Shown in pieces: positions 37,576 through 46,572 of a stretch of 64,000 nucleotides of DNA. Every line of letters starts with the position of its first letter. Positions within the stretch are counted from its first letter, which is position 1. The notes under the pieces are model-generated. The model did not search any database and had not been told where the DNA came from. It worked only from the letters and a program-made list of their open reading frames with translations. This stretch comes from Allohoeflea poritis. Lineage in GTDB: Bacteria; Pseudomonadota; Alphaproteobacteria; Rhizobiales; Rhizobiaceae. The DNA lies in contig NZ_JAPJZH010000018.1 in the NCBI RefSeq assembly GCF_027889715.1, positions 1 to 64,000 of the forward strand, given 5' to 3'. Both the position numbers and the translations under genes were made by a program.

Positions 37576-38784
37576 CTAAACCGCGCCGAGCGCCCGGTCG
37601 ATATCGTCGATCAGATCCTGCGCGTCTTCAAGTCCGACGGAAAGCCGCACCGTCGCATCGGTAATGCCGAGTTCTGTGCGGGCCTCTTCGGCAAGGTTCT
37701 TGTGAGTCGTCGTCGCCGGATGGGTGATCAGGCTCTTGGCGTCGCCCAGATTGTTCGAGATGCGGATGATCTCAAGTGCGTTCTCGAAGGCGAACGCTGC
37801 TTCCTTTCCGCCCGCGATCTCGAAGGCGACGAGGGTCGAGCCGCCGGACATCTGCTTTTGCACCAGATCCGCCTGCGGGTGGTCGGGCCGACCGGGATAG
37901 ATCACCCGATTGATCGCATTCAGCGACGCAAGATGGTCGGCGATCTTTCTGGCGCTTTGCGTCTGCTGCTGCACCCTTAGCGGCAGCGTTTCGAGCCCCT
38001 TCAGCAGCGTCCAGGCATTGAACGGCGACAACGAAGGGCCCGTATGGCGGAAATAGTCATGCAGGTGCTCGTCGATCCAGTCCTTCGACGACAGCACGAT
38101 GCCGCCGAGGCACCGGCCCTGGCCGTCAATGTGCTTGGTTGCCGAATAGACGACGATATGCGCGCCGAGATCGAGCGGCTTCTGATAAAGCGGCGTGGCG
38201 AACACATTGTCGACAACCACCCTGGCGCCGATGGCATCGGCGATTTTCGCAACGCCCGCAATGTCGATTACTTCGAGCGTCGGATTGGTCGGGCTTTCCA
38301 GGAAAAAGACCTTGGTATTCGGCTTTACGGCGCGCTGCCAGTTCTCCAGGTCCGTTCCGTCGATCAGCGTGGTCTCGATGCCGTATTTCGGCATCAGCGT
38401 CTCGACCACCCAGCGGCAGGAGCCGAACAGCGCCCGCGCCGAAACCACATGGTCCCCGGCATTGAGCTGGCACAAGAGCGCCGCTGATACGGCGGCCATG
38501 CCGGATGCGGTGGCGCGCGCATCCTCGGCGCCTTCAAGGGCGCACATGCGTTTTTCGAACATGTCGACGGTGGGATTGGCGTAGCGCGAATAGATGAAGC
38601 CTTCATCCTCGCCCTTGAAGCGGGCTTCGGCGGCTTGCGCGCTGTCATAGACGAAGCCCTGGGTCAGGAACATCGCTTCCGAGGTCTCGCCGAATTGCGA
38701 GCGGCTGGTGCCGCCATGGACCATCTGCGTTGCCGGCCGCCAATTGGCCGCGTTCAACGTTCCGTTCGAAATCTTGTCACTCAT
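37576..38784 (-). CDS. metZ: O-succinylhomoserine sulfhydrylase MetZ
   Basis: 402 residues, PLP enzyme of the Cys/Met-metabolism family that forms homocysteine from O-succinylhomoserine and sulfide. Motifs: SRYANPTVDMFE, the aromatic/phosphate loop ATASGMAAVS, VVDNVFATP and the PLP Lys in YSATKHIDGQGR. ATG 38784 with GGTGA upstream is chosen; the longer frame at 38799 uses a TTG without support. Transcription from the minus strand passes a SAM-II aptamer and an intrinsic terminator before the gene, so expression should fall when S-adenosylmethionine is high. Confidence 0.95.
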   Translation of the reverse strand: MSDKISNGTLNAANWRPATQMVHGGTSRSQFGETSEAMFLTQGFVYDSAQAAEARFKGEDEGFIYSRYANPTVDMFEKRMCALEGAEDARATASGMAAVSAALLCQLNAGDHVVSARALFGSCRWVVETLMPKYGIETTLIDGTDLENWQRAVKPNTKVFFLESPTNPTLEVIDIAGVAKIADAIGARVVVDNVFATPLYQKPLDLGAHIVVYSATKHIDGQGRCLGGIVLSSKDWIDEHLHDYFRHTGPSLSPFNAWTLLKGLETLPLRVQQQTQSARKIADHLASLNAINRVIYPGRPDHPQADLVQKQMSGGSTLVAFEIAGGKEAAFAFENALEIIRISNNLGDAKSLITHPATTTHKNLAEEARTELGITDATVRLSVGLEDAQDLIDDIDRALGAV

Positions 38785-38797
38785 GTCTTCACCCAAC

Positions 38798-38830
38798 AAA
38801 AAACCGGCCCGCGAAAATCGCCAGCCGGTT
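38798..38830 (-). terminator. Intrinsic terminator between SAM-II aptamer and metZ
   Basis: On the minus strand AACCGGC (38830-38824) pairs with GCCGGTT (38808-38802), with an inner GCGA/TCGC, and a run of six T follows. It ends 13 bp before the metZ start, so it can only serve as a conditional terminator in the leader. Confidence 0.8.
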
Positions 38831-38837
38831 GGACACC

Positions 38838-38896
38838 CGACCTTTTAGCGACTTGTTTAACGTGGCAGCAAGCCGGCCGGCCAAATCACCACGGGA
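38838..38896 (-). ncRNA. SAM-II riboswitch upstream of metZ
   Basis: The minus strand has the SAM-II layout: CGTGG (38893-38889) followed by TGATTTGG, a CCGG-rich loop with GGCTTGC, the closing CCACG (38865-38861) and the invariant-looking TTAAACAAGTCGCTAAAA to about 38840. This matches the metA-type element known upstream of methionine-synthesis genes in alphaproteobacteria. It lies about 55 nt before metZ. Confidence 0.92.
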
Positions 38897-38978
38897 TAAG
38901 GCCTCTTTACAGCCCCGATTTCCTTGCGTCAATCGTGGCGCGCTGTATTTGATAGACCGCGAAAGCATGGGGAACGGC

Positions 38979-40067: not shown

Positions 40068-40856
40068 TCACCCGGTCTTGTCCGCCTTCAGCTCGGCAAT
40101 TTCCACCCGCAATGCGCGCAATTCCTTGAGGATCATTTCCTGATCGCTGTGCAGCGCTTCGCGGTCGGCCATCGCCGCCTCTTCGTGCTCGGCCTGCATC
40201 GCCGAAACGATGATGCCGATGAAAAGGTTCAGCACGGTGAAGGAGGTGGCGATGATGAACGGCACGAAGAAGGCCCAGGCCATCGGATAGGCGGCCATCA
40301 CCGGCCGCACGATGCCCATCGACCAGCTTTCCAGCGTCATGATCTGGAACAGCGAATAGGCCGATGCCGGGATCGAGCCGAACCATTCCGGAAAAGTCGC
40401 GCCGTAAAGCTTGGTCGCCATCACCGAGAAAACGTAGAAGACGAGGCCGAGAAGCAGCACGATGGAGCCCATGCCGGGCAGGGCGGCGATCAGCCCGCCG
40501 ACGACCCGGCGCAGAGACGGCACCATCGAGACCAGCCGCAGGACACGCAGGATACGCAGCGCCCGCAGCACCGAAAGGCTTCCCGTCGTCGGCAGCAGCG
40601 CGATGCCGACAATGATGAAATCGAAAATCCGCCACGGGTCCTTGTGAAAGGACAGCCGGTAAACCGCCAGTTTGGCGACGAGTTCGACGACGAATATGCC
40701 GAGGATCACCCGGTCGAGCGTCAGCAGGAACCCGCCGGCCACATTCATCGCGGCCGGAACCGTTTCAAGCCCGAGCGTGATCGCGTTGACGATGATGATG
40801 GCGGTGATGAACCACTCGAAGCGACGGCTTTCGATCAGGTTTTTGAGCGCGGACAT
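40068..40856 (-). CDS. Bacterial voltage-gated sodium-type channel (BacNav-like)
   Basis: 262 residues with six transmembrane helices. The S4 voltage sensor carries regularly spaced arginines (VLRALRILRVLRLV), and the pore loop TLESWSM matches the TLESWS selectivity filter of NaChBac-type channels. The C-terminus is a charged coiled coil (ELRALRVEIAELKADK) expected to hold the tetramer. ATG 40856 is used; the longer frame to 41024 reads into the tRNA region. Such channels in marine bacteria relate to Na+ homeostasis and motility. Confidence 0.92.
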   Translation of the reverse strand: MSALKNLIESRRFEWFITAIIIVNAITLGLETVPAAMNVAGGFLLTLDRVILGIFVVELVAKLAVYRLSFHKDPWRIFDFIIVGIALLPTTGSLSVLRALRILRVLRLVSMVPSLRRVVGGLIAALPGMGSIVLLLGLVFYVFSVMATKLYGATFPEWFGSIPASAYSLFQIMTLESWSMGIVRPVMAAYPMAWAFFVPFIIATSFTVLNLFIGIIVSAMQAEHEEAAMADREALHSDQEMILKELRALRVEIAELKADKTG

Positions 40857-40987
40857 GGACCTGCCGGGATAGGTTGAAGTCCCCCAGCACATGGCAACGG
40901 GGCTGGGCGGAGTCAAGTTGCCCTTGACACAATTTACGCTGGCTTCATTGTGTTCATGCGCGTTTATCCGGATACGTCTGGATGTCG

Positions 40988-41061
40988 GCGGGTATGATGT
41001 AATGGTAGCCTGCAAGCTTCCCAAGCTTGACGCGCGGGTTCGATTCCCGCTACCCGCTCCA
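40988..41061 (+). tRNA. tRNA-Gly (anticodon CCC)
   Basis: Acceptor stem GCGGGTA/TACCCGC, anticodon stem CAAGC/GCTTG with loop TTCCCAA (CCC), T-stem GCGGG/CCCGC with loop TTCGATT, discriminator T and encoded CCA. It marks the left edge of the AT-rich two-gene island. Confidence 0.95.
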
Positions 41062-41157
41062 CCTGATTAAGCCTCGCGCAATATTATGCGGGTACTGATT
41101 TGTATCCCCGGCCTATGTGACGTTGGGAATCTTCTTAAAATTGCGTTGGAGTGCAGG

Positions 41158-41628
41158 ATGGGCGAGTTATTGACTATCGGTTACGAGGGTTCAAACATTG
41201 CAGATTTTGTTGCAACGCTGAAGCGATCGGATGTGAAAATCCTAATTGACGTAAGGGAACTACCGCTTTCCCGAAAAAAGGGTTTTTCAAAAAGGGCCCT
41301 GAAGGGCGCGCTTGAAGCTGCTGATATTCAATACACACACTTCAAAGATCTGGGAGACCCAAAGCCAGGTCGTGATGCTGCGAGGGCTGGAGATTTCGCA
41401 ACGTTCAGAAAGATATTCAGCCAGCACATGAGATCACCCGCAGCGCAGGCTGCCATTGAAGAAGCGATACCTTTAGTTAAAAATGGCGGTGCTTGTCTAT
41501 TGTGTTTTGAACGTTGCCATTCGAACTGTCATCGCTCTATAGTTGCAAGTGAATTACTGGAAAGAACCAGCTTATTGATCCGACATATTGGTGTTCAGCC
41601 CGGACTTGCAGGAGCATTTGCAAACTAA
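41158..41628 (+). CDS. DUF488 family protein
   Basis: 156 residues. It begins with the family hallmark LLTIGYEG, followed by LIDVRELPLSRKKGFSK (the conserved DVR and Arg/Lys cluster) and a cysteine/histidine motif LLCFERCHSNCHR near residue 125. DUF488 proteins are uncharacterised; their conserved polar residues suggest a small enzyme. ATG 41158 has TTGGAG upstream and matches the family start; the ATG at 41086 is too early. Base composition is visibly poorer in GC than the flanks. Overlaps the next gene, suggesting translational coupling. Confidence 0.85.
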   Translation: MGELLTIGYEGSNIADFVATLKRSDVKILIDVRELPLSRKKGFSKRALKGALEAADIQYTHFKDLGDPKPGRDAARAGDFATFRKIFSQHMRSPAAQAAIEEAIPLVKNGGACLLCFERCHSNCHRSIVASELLERTSLLIRHIGVQPGLAGAFAN

Positions 41629-42382
41629 GTCAAATCAAACAGAGGCTATAGTCCTGATAAAGGCCGCACCCGTGATCGGAAAGAGTCACGGGGAGACAGT
41701 TTGTTGTGCGGGCATTGACCTCTACGGAAACTGGCTACGTTTATATCCGGTATCATTCAGGGTCCTTGATGACGGCAAGAAATTTAAGCGATGGGATCGC
41801 ATCAAGTTCAACTGGCGTACGCCAACTACTGATGACAGAATCGAAAGCCGACATGTCGACAGCCAAACCTTGGAGATTGTTGGCCGCCTTCCAGATAGAG
41901 AAAAAGAAAGCTTCTTGGCGCAAAAGATAGTCACTAGTCTTGACAAAGAGCGCGAGGAGGGACGGAGTTTGGCTCTCCTCAAACCCGAAATCAAAGCTTT
42001 TAACATAAACAAAAAATCCAACGACAAACTCGCAGAGCAACAGAAGCGAATAGACGCTTTTCATGCTCAATCAGATTTCTTTGTACCCAAACCGGCAGTC
42101 CCATCTCGAGCATGTCCATATGAGTTTGTGTATCGATACATAACAGATGACGGAGAGAGAGAAGGCACGTGTCAAGATTGGGAAACAGAAGCGACCTTTT
42201 TTAACTGGTCAAGGACATACGGCGAAGCTAAGGCTCTAAGTAAAATGCAACAACAGTTTGGAAGAAATTTGCCGCAAAAAGGACTGATGTTTGCCATGGG
42301 TACTCACTCTCGTTGGCCAGACACATGGCTCATAAATGGATTGATTCAGATTAAGGAGCCTGATCAAAGTACTCTGATTTAA
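41618..42382 (+). CDS. Uncharacterised partner of DUF488 with a WLRLYPV motif
   Basis: About 254 residues. Start uncertain: TTG 41618 has AGGAG only 3 bp before it, GTG 41591 is the alternative, and there is no ATG. No named domain is recognised. Visible features are an N-terminal beta-rich segment (VCCAGIDLYGNWLRLYPVSF, then FKRWDRIKFNW), a Lys/Glu-rich middle, and a C-terminal region with CPYEFVYRY, CQDWETEATFFNW and FAMGTHSRWPDTWLINGL. The WLRLYPV and FAMGTHSRWPDTW segments look like a ligand-binding surface. Coupled to DUF488; AT-rich (23 G/C in 42001-42060). Confidence 0.75.
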   Translation: MQTKSNQTEAIVLIKAAPVIGKSHGETVCCAGIDLYGNWLRLYPVSFRVLDDGKKFKRWDRIKFNWRTPTTDDRIESRHVDSQTLEIVGRLPDREKESFLAQKIVTSLDKEREEGRSLALLKPEIKAFNINKKSNDKLAEQQKRIDAFHAQSDFFVPKPAVPSRACPYEFVYRYITDDGEREGTCQDWETEATFFNWSRTYGEAKALSKMQQQFGRNLPQKGLMFAMGTHSRWPDTWLINGLIQIKEPDQSTLI

Positions 42383-42390
42383 TCTGAAAC

Positions 42391-43311
42391 ATGCTCTCTA
42401 ACCTCAAATTCCTTTTGCCTAAGAAGAATCTGGTTGCCTTTGTTAGGCCAGTTGTTTTGCTACTTGCCGCGATATGGGCGTTCGCAGCAAGTTCTCAAAC
42501 GTCTGCGCCGGCCGCCGCGCAGCAGCCGGGCGAAACGGGAAATGCCGACTACCCGAACTACTGGGACCCGCGCGAGCGTGTCGAGGTGCCGGATCTTTCG
42601 GCGCGCAACCGCATCCGCTTCCTGACCACCCATGACTTTCCGCCCTTCAACTTCATCGACCAGCAGGAGCACGTTTCCGGCTTTCACGTCGATCTGGCGC
42701 GGGAAATCTGCGATGAGCTGAAAATTGCCGACAAGTGCCAGATCCAGGTGTTGCCCTGGAGCGAATTGTCGACGGCGATCGCCGGCGGGCAGGGCGACGC
42801 GCTCATCGCCGGGGTCGCGATCAATGTTTTGAGCCGCGACGATTATCTCTTCACGCGGCCGTTCCTGAAATTCCCCGCCCGTTTCGTGCGTGCCGACCGG
42901 GTCGAGATCGATGGCGAGGATGCGACGGCGCTGGCGGGCCGCCGTGTCGGCGTGATGGCCGGGTCCGCCCATGCGGCCATGCTGCGCGCCTATTTCCCGA
43001 ACATACAGCCGGTCACCTTTGAGCGTGACGAATGGATGTTCGACAGCCTGAAGACCGGCGATATCGACGCGGTTTTCGGTGACGGCGTGCAACTGTCCTT
43101 CTGGCTGGTCAGCAATTCGGCCAATGAATGCTGTTCCTATTTCGACGGGCCCTATTTCGGCCCGTCTTTCCTCGGTGAAGGTCTGGCGATCGCCGTGCGC
43201 CGCGACAGCCAGGACCTGGCGGACGCCTTCGACCACGCCATCCACGCGATCAGCAAGGACGGCCGCATGCGCGAGCTTTACCTGCGCTATTTCCCCAACG
43301 GGTTGTACTGA
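42391..43311 (+). CDS. Periplasmic amino-acid-type solute-binding protein (family 3)
   Basis: 306 residues. SBP_bac_3 fold: FLTTHDFPPFNFID, GFHVDLAREICDEL, QVLPWSELSTAIAGGQGDALIAG, and the C-terminal GLAIAVRRDSQDLADAFDHAI. Two cysteines (ECCSYF) are unusual. The hydrophobic signal peptide region (about residues 1-45) is AT-rich like the preceding island, while the mature part returns to chromosomal composition, so the island edge may lie inside this gene. No permease or ATPase is adjacent. Confidence 0.87.
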   Translation: MLSNLKFLLPKKNLVAFVRPVVLLLAAIWAFAASSQTSAPAAAQQPGETGNADYPNYWDPRERVEVPDLSARNRIRFLTTHDFPPFNFIDQQEHVSGFHVDLAREICDELKIADKCQIQVLPWSELSTAIAGGQGDALIAGVAINVLSRDDYLFTRPFLKFPARFVRADRVEIDGEDATALAGRRVGVMAGSAHAAMLRAYFPNIQPVTFERDEWMFDSLKTGDIDAVFGDGVQLSFWLVSNSANECCSYFDGPYFGPSFLGEGLAIAVRRDSQDLADAFDHAIHAISKDGRMRELYLRYFPNGLY

Positions 43312-44907: not shown

Positions 44908-46572
44908 ATGAACACGCACCGCCAGACCCAGATCAGTCTCGATGAGGATATGATTGCGGCAGCGGCCGAGGCAAAGGCCTGGCCGTTCGAGGAGGCGCGC
45001 AAGATCGTCAAGCGCTACGAAAAGAGCGGTTATCCCGAGACGGTGCTCTTCGAGACCGGTTACGGGCCGTCCGGGCTGCCTCATATCGGCACTTTCGGCG
45101 AGGTTGCCCGCACGTCCATGGTGCGCCATGCATTCCGCGTGCTGACCCGCGACACCGTGAAAACGAAGATCCTGTGTTTTTCGGACGACATGGACGGCTT
45201 CCGCAAGGTGCCGACCAACCTTCCGAACCAGGAGATGCTGCAGAACTATATCGGCATGCCGCTGACCAGCGTGCCGGACCCGTTTTCCAGCGAGTACCCG
45301 TCCTTCGGCGCCGCCAACAATGCACGCCTGCGGGCCTTCCTCGATCGGTTCGGCTTCGAATACGAATTCGCGTCCTCGACGGAATATTACCAGAGCGGCC
45401 GCTTCGACGCGGCGCTGCGCCGCATGCTGGACGTCTACGACAAGGTCATGGATATCATCCTGCCGACGCTTGGCGAGGAACGCCGCGCCACCTATTCGCC
45501 CTTCCTGCCCGTGTGCCAGCGCACCGGCAAGGTCCTGCAAGTGCCGATGACCGGCCGCAATGTCGAGGCCGGCACGGTCACCTATGTCGATCCGGAAACC
45601 GGCGAAGAAATCGAGACCCCTGTCACCGGCGGCCGGGTCAAGTGCCAGTGGAAGGCCGACTGGGCGCTGCGCTGGTACGCGCTCGGCGTCGACTATGAAA
45701 TGGCCGGCAAGGACCTGATCGACAGCGTGACCCTGTCGTCTAAGATCTGCCGGGCGCTCGGAAAGCCGGCGCCGGAAGGCTTCAACTACGAACTCTTCCT
45801 CGATGAGAACGGTCAGAAAATCTCCAAGTCCAAGGGCAACGGCCTGACGATCGACGAGTGGCTGACCTATGCATCCGAGGAGAGCCTGGCGCTCTACATG
45901 TTCCAGAAGCCGAAGACAGCCAAGAAGCTCTATTTCGACGTCATCCCGAAGGCGGTCGACGAGTATTTCTCGTTTCTCGGCGCTTATCCGCGGCAGGACT
46001 GGAAAAACCGGCTCGGCAATCCCGTCTGGCACCTGCATGACGGCGATCCGCCGGCGCTCGACAATCCGGTGCCCTTCGCGATGCTGCTCAATCTCGTCAG
46101 CGCCTCGAACGCCGAGAACAGCGACGTTCTGTGGGGGTTCATCTCGCGCTATGCGCCGGGCGTGACGGCACAGACCCATCCGAAGCTCGATGAGCTGGTC
46201 GGCTACGCGATCCGTTACTTCAACGATTTCGTCAAGCCGACCAAGGTGTTCAGGCCTGCCGACGATGTCGAGCGGCAGGCGCTGACGGCGCTCGACAGCA
46301 AGCTGGCGGAGTTGCCCGATGATGCCGACGGCGCGGTCATCCAGGATGCGGTGCTGGATGTCGCGCGCGCCATCGAGCGCTACCAGGATCCGAACAAGAA
46401 GAGCCCGGATGGCGGTCCGGGCGTCTCGATCGCCTTCTTCCAGATGCTTTACCAGGTGCTTCTGGGGCAGGAGCGCGGGCCGCGTTTCGGATCCTTCGTC
46501 GCGCTCTACGGCATTGGCGAGACCCGCGCGCTTATCGCAAAGGCACTGGCAGGGGATCTTGCAGCGGGCTGA
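44908..46572 (+). CDS. lysK: Class I lysyl-tRNA synthetase
   Basis: 554 residues. This is the archaeal-type class I LysRS found in alphaproteobacteria in place of class II LysS. The HIGH-type motif is LPHIGTFGE (about residue 58) and the KMSKS-type motif is KISKSKGNG (about residue 312). The Rossmann catalytic domain and the C-terminal alpha-helix-cage domain fill the normal length. ATG 44908 follows GAAAGAAAG. The gene ends inside the convergent SNase-like gene with a 41-bp overlap. Confidence 0.95.

Follow-up and report, generated by a model that had tools for sequence, protein, structure and literature searches.

The question raised by this locus is what two overlapping, AT-rich genes directly behind a tRNA-Gly gene do. 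The genes lie in a 64-kb window (the whole stretch of DNA that was analysed) and had been presented in a first-pass annotation as a DUF488 gene coupled to an unrecognised protein, and as the best candidate there for an undescribed system, possibly directed at nucleotides, RNA or phages. The analysis of the pair, its relatives and its neighbourhoods led us to regard it, with about even confidence, as a PDC-M19-type conflict module of two genes that moves between genomes, in which a DUF488 enzyme and a nucleic-acid-binding partner would be directed at DNA.

Gene layout, composition and insertion site

Two overlapping ORFs (41158-41628 and 41588-42382, both on the + strand) were confirmed behind a tRNA-Gly gene with the anticodon CCC (40988..41061, +), the neighbour of the insertion, which was predicted by ARAGORN and scored 61.3 bits with the Rfam tRNA model. 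The first gene (41158..41628, +) codes for a DUF488 protein of 156 amino acids. An in-frame ATG at 41086 is a less likely start, because the methionine of relatives sits at the place of 41158. The second frame is open from a TTG at 41588 to 42382 (264 amino acids in the ORF list), and its likely start is a TTG at 41606, since TTG followed by CAG or CAA was found at the same place in four of the eight relatives shown (L118, L120, L141 and L152, and not in L117). The partner gene (41606..42382, +) would then code for about 258 amino acids and overlap the DUF488 gene by 23 nt. The pair is flanked downstream by a gene for an extracellular solute-binding protein (SBP_bac_3; 42391..43311, +; PF00497, 1.9e-24).

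The foreign composition claimed for the pair was borne out, with a G+C content of 45.8% compared with 61.8% in the remaining window, and the locus is the AT-richest stretch of the window. All 15 of the lowest-G+C segments (1225 bp, step 100) begin within 40501-41901, with a minimum of 0.456 at 41201 against a mean of 0.614 and a standard deviation of 0.030 over the whole 64 kb. The GC3 values of the two genes were 0.39 and 0.45, while those of six neighbour genes were 0.78-0.84. The AT-rich stretch (41062..42490) runs from the tRNA to the body of the solute-binding gene, whose first 100 nt it takes in, with a G+C of 0.45-0.48 inside and 0.61-0.63 outside. The 5' end of the solute-binding gene (42391-42490, the signal peptide region) had a G+C of 0.46 against 0.63 in its remainder, as if the insertion had replaced or brought this end.

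Of the seven further genomes in the genus, two (L022 and L023) carried the tRNA-Gly(CCC) gene closely followed by the solute-binding gene, with the pair absent, and thus an empty site. Read in the direction of the window, the tRNA ends at 1450 in L022 and 1390 in L023, while the solute-binding protein is matched from 1501 on in both, beginning at its residues 29 and 53, respectively. The comparison covers these two genomes, as no tRNA was found in the other five within the 1.5 kb available on either side. As for the marks of an integrative element, the empty site in relatives was present, and a duplicated tRNA 3' end (a copy of at least 12 nt at the far border) was not found in 40950-42700. 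The tRNA site, which had been taken as a classic home for such modules, did not hold for the pair in general: a tRNA lay directly upstream in 2 of the 60 relatives' loci scanned (60 of the best 80 of 154), and tRNA-proximal integration was rejected as a general rule. The two tRNAs, on the same strand as the pair, are a tRNA-Leu (L160:9194-9279) and a tRNA-Ala (L152:9219-9294).

A structured RNA within the island was also considered and rejected; at Rfam gathering thresholds, none but the tRNA was found there, with a riboswitch lying 2 kb off. This SAM_alpha riboswitch (38825-38902, -, 81.5 bits) is directly upstream of a gene (37576-38799, -) that looks by eye like an O-succinylhomoserine sulfhydrylase, a context that fits an alphaproteobacterial host. 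Another gene of the window (44908-46572, +) looks by eye, from its translation, like a class I lysyl-tRNA synthetase. Promoter and terminator scans at the locus gave results at chance level, and the comparison of synonymous and non-synonymous changes with four relatives gave an unusable ratio, as synonymous sites were saturated.

Linkage, distribution and carriage by mobile elements

Three linkage searches were made, which overlap in part (L174 and L013, and L169 and L014, are on contigs of equal length). In the family search, all 18 partner places (window included) had a DUF488 gene adjoining the partner gene; among viral contigs this held for 64 of 66, and among the best 80 of 154 genome loci for 76. 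In the two viral misses (L073 and L116), the partner was cut by the contig end. The four genome misses comprised a partner cut by the contig end (L181), a truncated partner (L148), and two partners standing alone (L119 and L177). The lone partner of L119 shares 90% identity with the one that stands beside DUF488 in L120, which makes a loss of DUF488 in L119 probable. A scan of 146 loci (L051-L196) returned no ORF in which DUF488 and the partner were fused.

The pair was patchy: with this genome included in both counts, it was found in 9 of 121 relatives and in 10 of the 398 genomes from the phylum. At E 1e-30, the partner was matched in 12 of 394 family genomes, belonging to 10 of 109 genera (this genome counted), and in one of eight genomes of the genus, namely this genome. 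A distant pair of the long-DUF488 type, with a partner 24% identical, was found in one genome of the same genus (G005). The closest partners (66-69% identical; best 80 of 154) came from an uncultured Rhodobacteraceae bacterium, Frigidibacter, Pelagimonas and Yoonia, and the best partner in the own family group was 61% identical, below the value of these outside relatives. Among 14 named control genomes, Synechococcus elongatus and Methanosarcina acetivorans were matched, so the partner family reaches cyanobacteria and archaea. In 73 of 76 loci the pair had a lower G+C than the sequence around it, with a mean difference of 9 points. The six top genome loci had the pair alone in common at E 1e-20, up to 10 kb on each side, and the seven genes around the window pair had no match in any of them.

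The first-pass annotation had proposed a tightly coupled, horizontally moving two-protein system, a view to be given up if the genes were unlinked elsewhere or fixed in core genomes with a housekeeping pattern. The genes proved to be linked in other genomes and the pair is not core, and that proposal stands. An ordinary accessory pair for metabolism or repair, with no role in conflict, is a very improbable reading: the patchy, mobile and phage-borne occurrence, the lowered G+C and the lack of common flanks in the six top loci all argue against it. What it has on its side is that DUF488 is a widespread family, present in 6 of the 14 control genomes, and that some plasmid copies of the pair lie among metal-resistance genes.

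Carriage by mobile elements was found directly. The partner occurred in seven Gordonia phage records, as gp43, and in 22 plasmid records, 11 of them predicted to be conjugative, and DUF488 was beside the partner in 8 of 8 phage or plasmid records examined (of 29 matches). In the Gordonia phage examined, gp43 lies between an annotated immunity repressor (gp44) and an integrase (gp39), and gp42 is a DUF488 protein (1.2e-29) convergent with gp43. The gp44 gene was considered as the DUF488 partner gene and rejected, with weak helix-turn-helix matches below Pfam cut-offs and gp42 being the DUF488 protein. In one Gordonia phage locus (L197:4024-5828), gene 44 overlaps partner gene 43 by one base, and the gp44 repressor and the partner may form one operon of the prophage state.

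The gene order was tandem, with DUF488 first, in 43 of 64 viral loci and convergent in the other 21, while on a cyanobacterial plasmid (L202) the partner precedes DUF488; the genes stay paired despite the differing order. A long DUF488 form was found in 8 of the 43 tandem viral loci. Such long forms (for example L003:2324-3277 and L011:570-1481) have about 150 extra N-terminal residues, and this N-terminal domain gave a weak Panacea-like match (hhalign P 2.3e-4, 45%, 33 columns), so that a link of the long forms to Panacea antitoxins is possible. That match, together with the small, mostly overlapping genes carried on plasmids and phages, is what a toxin-antitoxin or abortive-infection pair can call upon, in which one protein would poison the cell upon loss of its partner or interference by a phage. 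We consider such a pair unlikely, as the convergent third of the viral loci (21 of 64) goes against the usual co-transcription, the fixed gene order of type II systems was not seen, and the survival of the partner by itself in L119, at 90% identity to the L120 partner that has DUF488 beside it, makes it an improbable free toxin.

Predicted enzyme, dual-OB-like partner and neighbouring genes

The DUF488 protein scored 107.4 bits with PF04343 (cut-off 22.2; 9.5e-31) and is the single match to this family in the whole genome. It also scored 32.9 bits with DUF488-N3a (PF22751), above the cut-off of 27 for this clade, which is named in Pfam as the 'Active DUF488-N3 subclade'. In PHROGs it matched phrog_14939, which, like the phrog_25907 of the partner, is a group of unknown function there. 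In an alignment of 67 DUF488 proteins (A3), the residues T6, G8, Y9, E10, G11, D31, R33, S38, G42, F43, Y59, G66, R72, C116, E118, C124, H125 and R126 were invariant, and we read this set as the pattern of an enzyme. The conserved Cys/His/Arg constellation of the first-pass annotation was upheld for C116, E118, C124, H125 and R126, all intact in the window protein, with the codons C116..R126 (41503..41535, +) forming the predicted active site. The CHSNCHR string that had been singled out was conserved in its last three letters alone; its first C and H are usually other residues in relatives. PDB sequence searches returned no relatives of known structure.

DUF488 presumably belongs with the rhodanese/phosphatase enzymes, and we know of no activity test of the family, DUF488-N3a included. 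Burroughs and Aravind reportedly made this assignment in 2023 and predicted that a RapZ-C/DUF488/DUF4326 clade processes DNA ends in conflict systems.

The partner had no Pfam match up to E 1, the DuOB domain (PF22557) included, which agrees with its earlier description as unrecognised; that description fell short in that both the PADLOC model PDC-M19B (1.3e-35) and phrog_25907 (2.6e-29) matched it. When a profile of 59 partners was aligned by hhalign to one of 8 DuOB proteins, P was 1.7e-5 and the probability 78% over 133 columns. The score was 39.0 in a rerun with the first row as master, compared with 20.0 for the best of 100 column-shuffled partner profiles and 12.9 for the reversed DuOB profile, and smaller partner sets scored lower (A1, 31.5; A2, 23.0, P 0.017). 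The phage partner gp43 reached E 0.0021 and 18.6 bits with the Pfam DuOB model, below the cut-off of 27. The partner is thus remotely similar to the DuOB (dual OB) domain, and it is not classed as DuOB because it stays under the curated cut-off. A viral scan with a single DuOB protein led to nothing.

The linkage, mobility, residue motif, remote DuOB similarity, carriage by phages and plasmids, and some neighbouring methyltransferase and defence genes suggest that the pair acts on DNA, and a nucleic-acid- or phage-directed function, as proposed at first pass, is plausible. In the mechanism we favour, the dual-OB-like partner would bind DNA, other nucleic acid or a nucleotide, and DUF488, as a cysteine enzyme of the rhodanese/phosphatase kind acting through C116, C124 and R126, would modify or process the bound DNA at its ends, backbone or bases. 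Whether on phages, plasmids or chromosomes, the pair may in this way leave a mark on a competing element's DNA or damage it. The lone partners of L119 and L177, kept with no DUF488, count against this conflict reading.

PADLOC analysis of the ORFs nearest the pair in 38 genome loci (150 of 228 ORFs) gave 110 models at 1e-10. The 25 of these listed included type II and III methyltransferases, DrmA and DrmD (DISARM), AbiEi, AbiEii, ShosA and PDC-S28. The control ORFs (131 of 158, from 20 stretches) gave 10 models with a best value of 5.2e-35, comprising four Mads, two Pycsar cyclase, GlgB, DEDDh, subtilase and PDC-S48 models. An enrichment near defence genes, which the first-pass annotation had named as a check, was seen in these counts (110 against 10). 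The comparison is a rough one: several models may fall on one protein, so that models outnumber proteins, genes were called crudely, and other genomes supplied the controls.

PHROGs matches of 140 ORFs (of 163) beside 30 viral loci included methyltransferases (8), ParB-like proteins (6), small terminase subunits (4), portal proteins (3) and head proteins (3), and a single protein may appear under both the methyltransferase and the ParB heading. Of the 122 loci with 1.5 kb or more of sequence upstream, 25 (19 viral and 6 genome loci) have a methyltransferase homologue whose end lies no more than 400 nt ahead of the pair; three of the 25 are weak matches (L106, L108 and L109; 4.6e-11). In all eight viral records tested, the directly upstream gene had an N6_N4_Mtase domain scoring above the cut-off and also matched ParB_N, with an E value of 6.1e-5 or lower. 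The ParB_N match was above the cut-off in 2 of the 8 records, or in 4 if a second such gene is counted. The large terminase PF03354 followed the pair in two of these records, and this family was not found in the other six.

These phage loci would place the action of the pair on DNA, near methylation and packaging. Some phages hold the pair between their own methyltransferase and terminase, which counts against the conflict reading, and a service to the phage fits such an arrangement as well. The pair might be a phage-derived accessory that modifies or finishes the DNA of its own element together with the ParB-methyltransferase, for survival of restriction or for packaging, and the window copy a leftover of such a cassette. 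The upstream methyltransferases, their ParB_N matches and the terminase, portal and head neighbours speak for this possibility, which we nevertheless regard as doubtful. Neither the 64-kb window nor any of the six genome loci closest to it has a homologue of these methyltransferases, and a motif screen found a methyltransferase in none of 13 viral loci of the convergent type. The counts are raw ones, uncorrected for how often ParB-methyltransferases lie near terminases in phages at large, and part of the 19 viral loci come from one clade. The chromosomal and plasmid copies with no methyltransferase or terminase neighbours look like captured conflict modules.

Relation to listed and described systems

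The claim of an undescribed system was rejected, as PADLOC-DB 2.0.0 holds both genes as the candidate PDC-M19. The window DUF488 matched PDC-M19A at 1.2e-30, ahead of M45B (6.6e-17) and M45C (2e-15), and the partner matched PDC-M19B; the two genes are adjacent, adjacency being our assumption for the PADLOC rule of PDC-M19. The two PDC-M19A models have 294 and 234 positions, and the window protein matches them from positions 151 and 91 on, a short DUF488 lacking the N-terminal extension of both. PDC stands for phage defence candidate (PMC11514479), and most PDC systems are described as awaiting validation (PMC12988326). No mention of PDC-M19 by name was found in the main texts of the literature covered.

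An archaeal system in which a ParB-CTPase fold is fused to DUF488-HTH and binds CTP (PMC12704722) resembles some of the phage loci in linking DUF488 with ParB-type domains; it differs in being a fusion, while the ParB-type and DUF488 proteins are encoded here by separate genes. On large Methanoperedens plasmids, a DUF488 protein has been reported near RadC, YpsA and UvrD (PMC9674854).

The listed system PDC-M45 consists of a DuOB protein (PF22557) with one or two DUF488 proteins. Like the window pair, it has a dual-OB or dual-OB-like gene beside DUF488, and its OB-type protein and the window partner show profile similarity. Unlike it, the window partner has no match to PDC-M45A (up to E 1) or DuOB, and the window pair has one DUF488, whereas the M45-type loci examined have two DUF488 genes or DUF488 with DUF4326. 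A DUF488 gene adjoined the DuOB-type gene in 9 of 9 loci examined (L205-L213; three genome places and 6 of 23 plasmid records, with L207 below the DuOB cut-off), and some of these loci had a second DUF488 or a DUF4326 gene. DuOB and DUF488 were followed by a DUF4326 protein in L206, L210, L211 and L212, and in L206 this protein is fused to a minimal SLOG domain. One of the nine loci lies beside CBASS genes, another beside Cas1 and Csm6, and the proteins of one matched PDC-M45A, B and C. Since the nine DuOB-type loci carry DUF488 too, PDC-M19 and PDC-M45 look like sister systems.

A broader conjecture, which we put forward with considerable reserve and rate as improbable, is that PDC-M19 and PDC-M45 are one class of DNA-processing systems built from DUF488 and dual-OB proteins. 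One home of the window subfamily would be a phage cassette of ParB-methyltransferase, DUF488, dual-OB-like protein and terminase, in which the pair gives phage DNA a novel mark or end structure, and cells and plasmids would have captured DUF488 and the dual-OB-like gene alone and turned the same chemistry against other elements. The evidence that similar dual-OB-type proteins accompany DUF488 in two separately listed candidates, PDC-M19 and PDC-M45, and that some phages carry one of these next to a ParB-methyltransferase and a terminase, makes of an anonymous gene pair a testable claim on DNA chemistry with five named residues. The candidate PDC-M19 was already listed; the link to DuOB and the ParB-methyltransferase context are new here.
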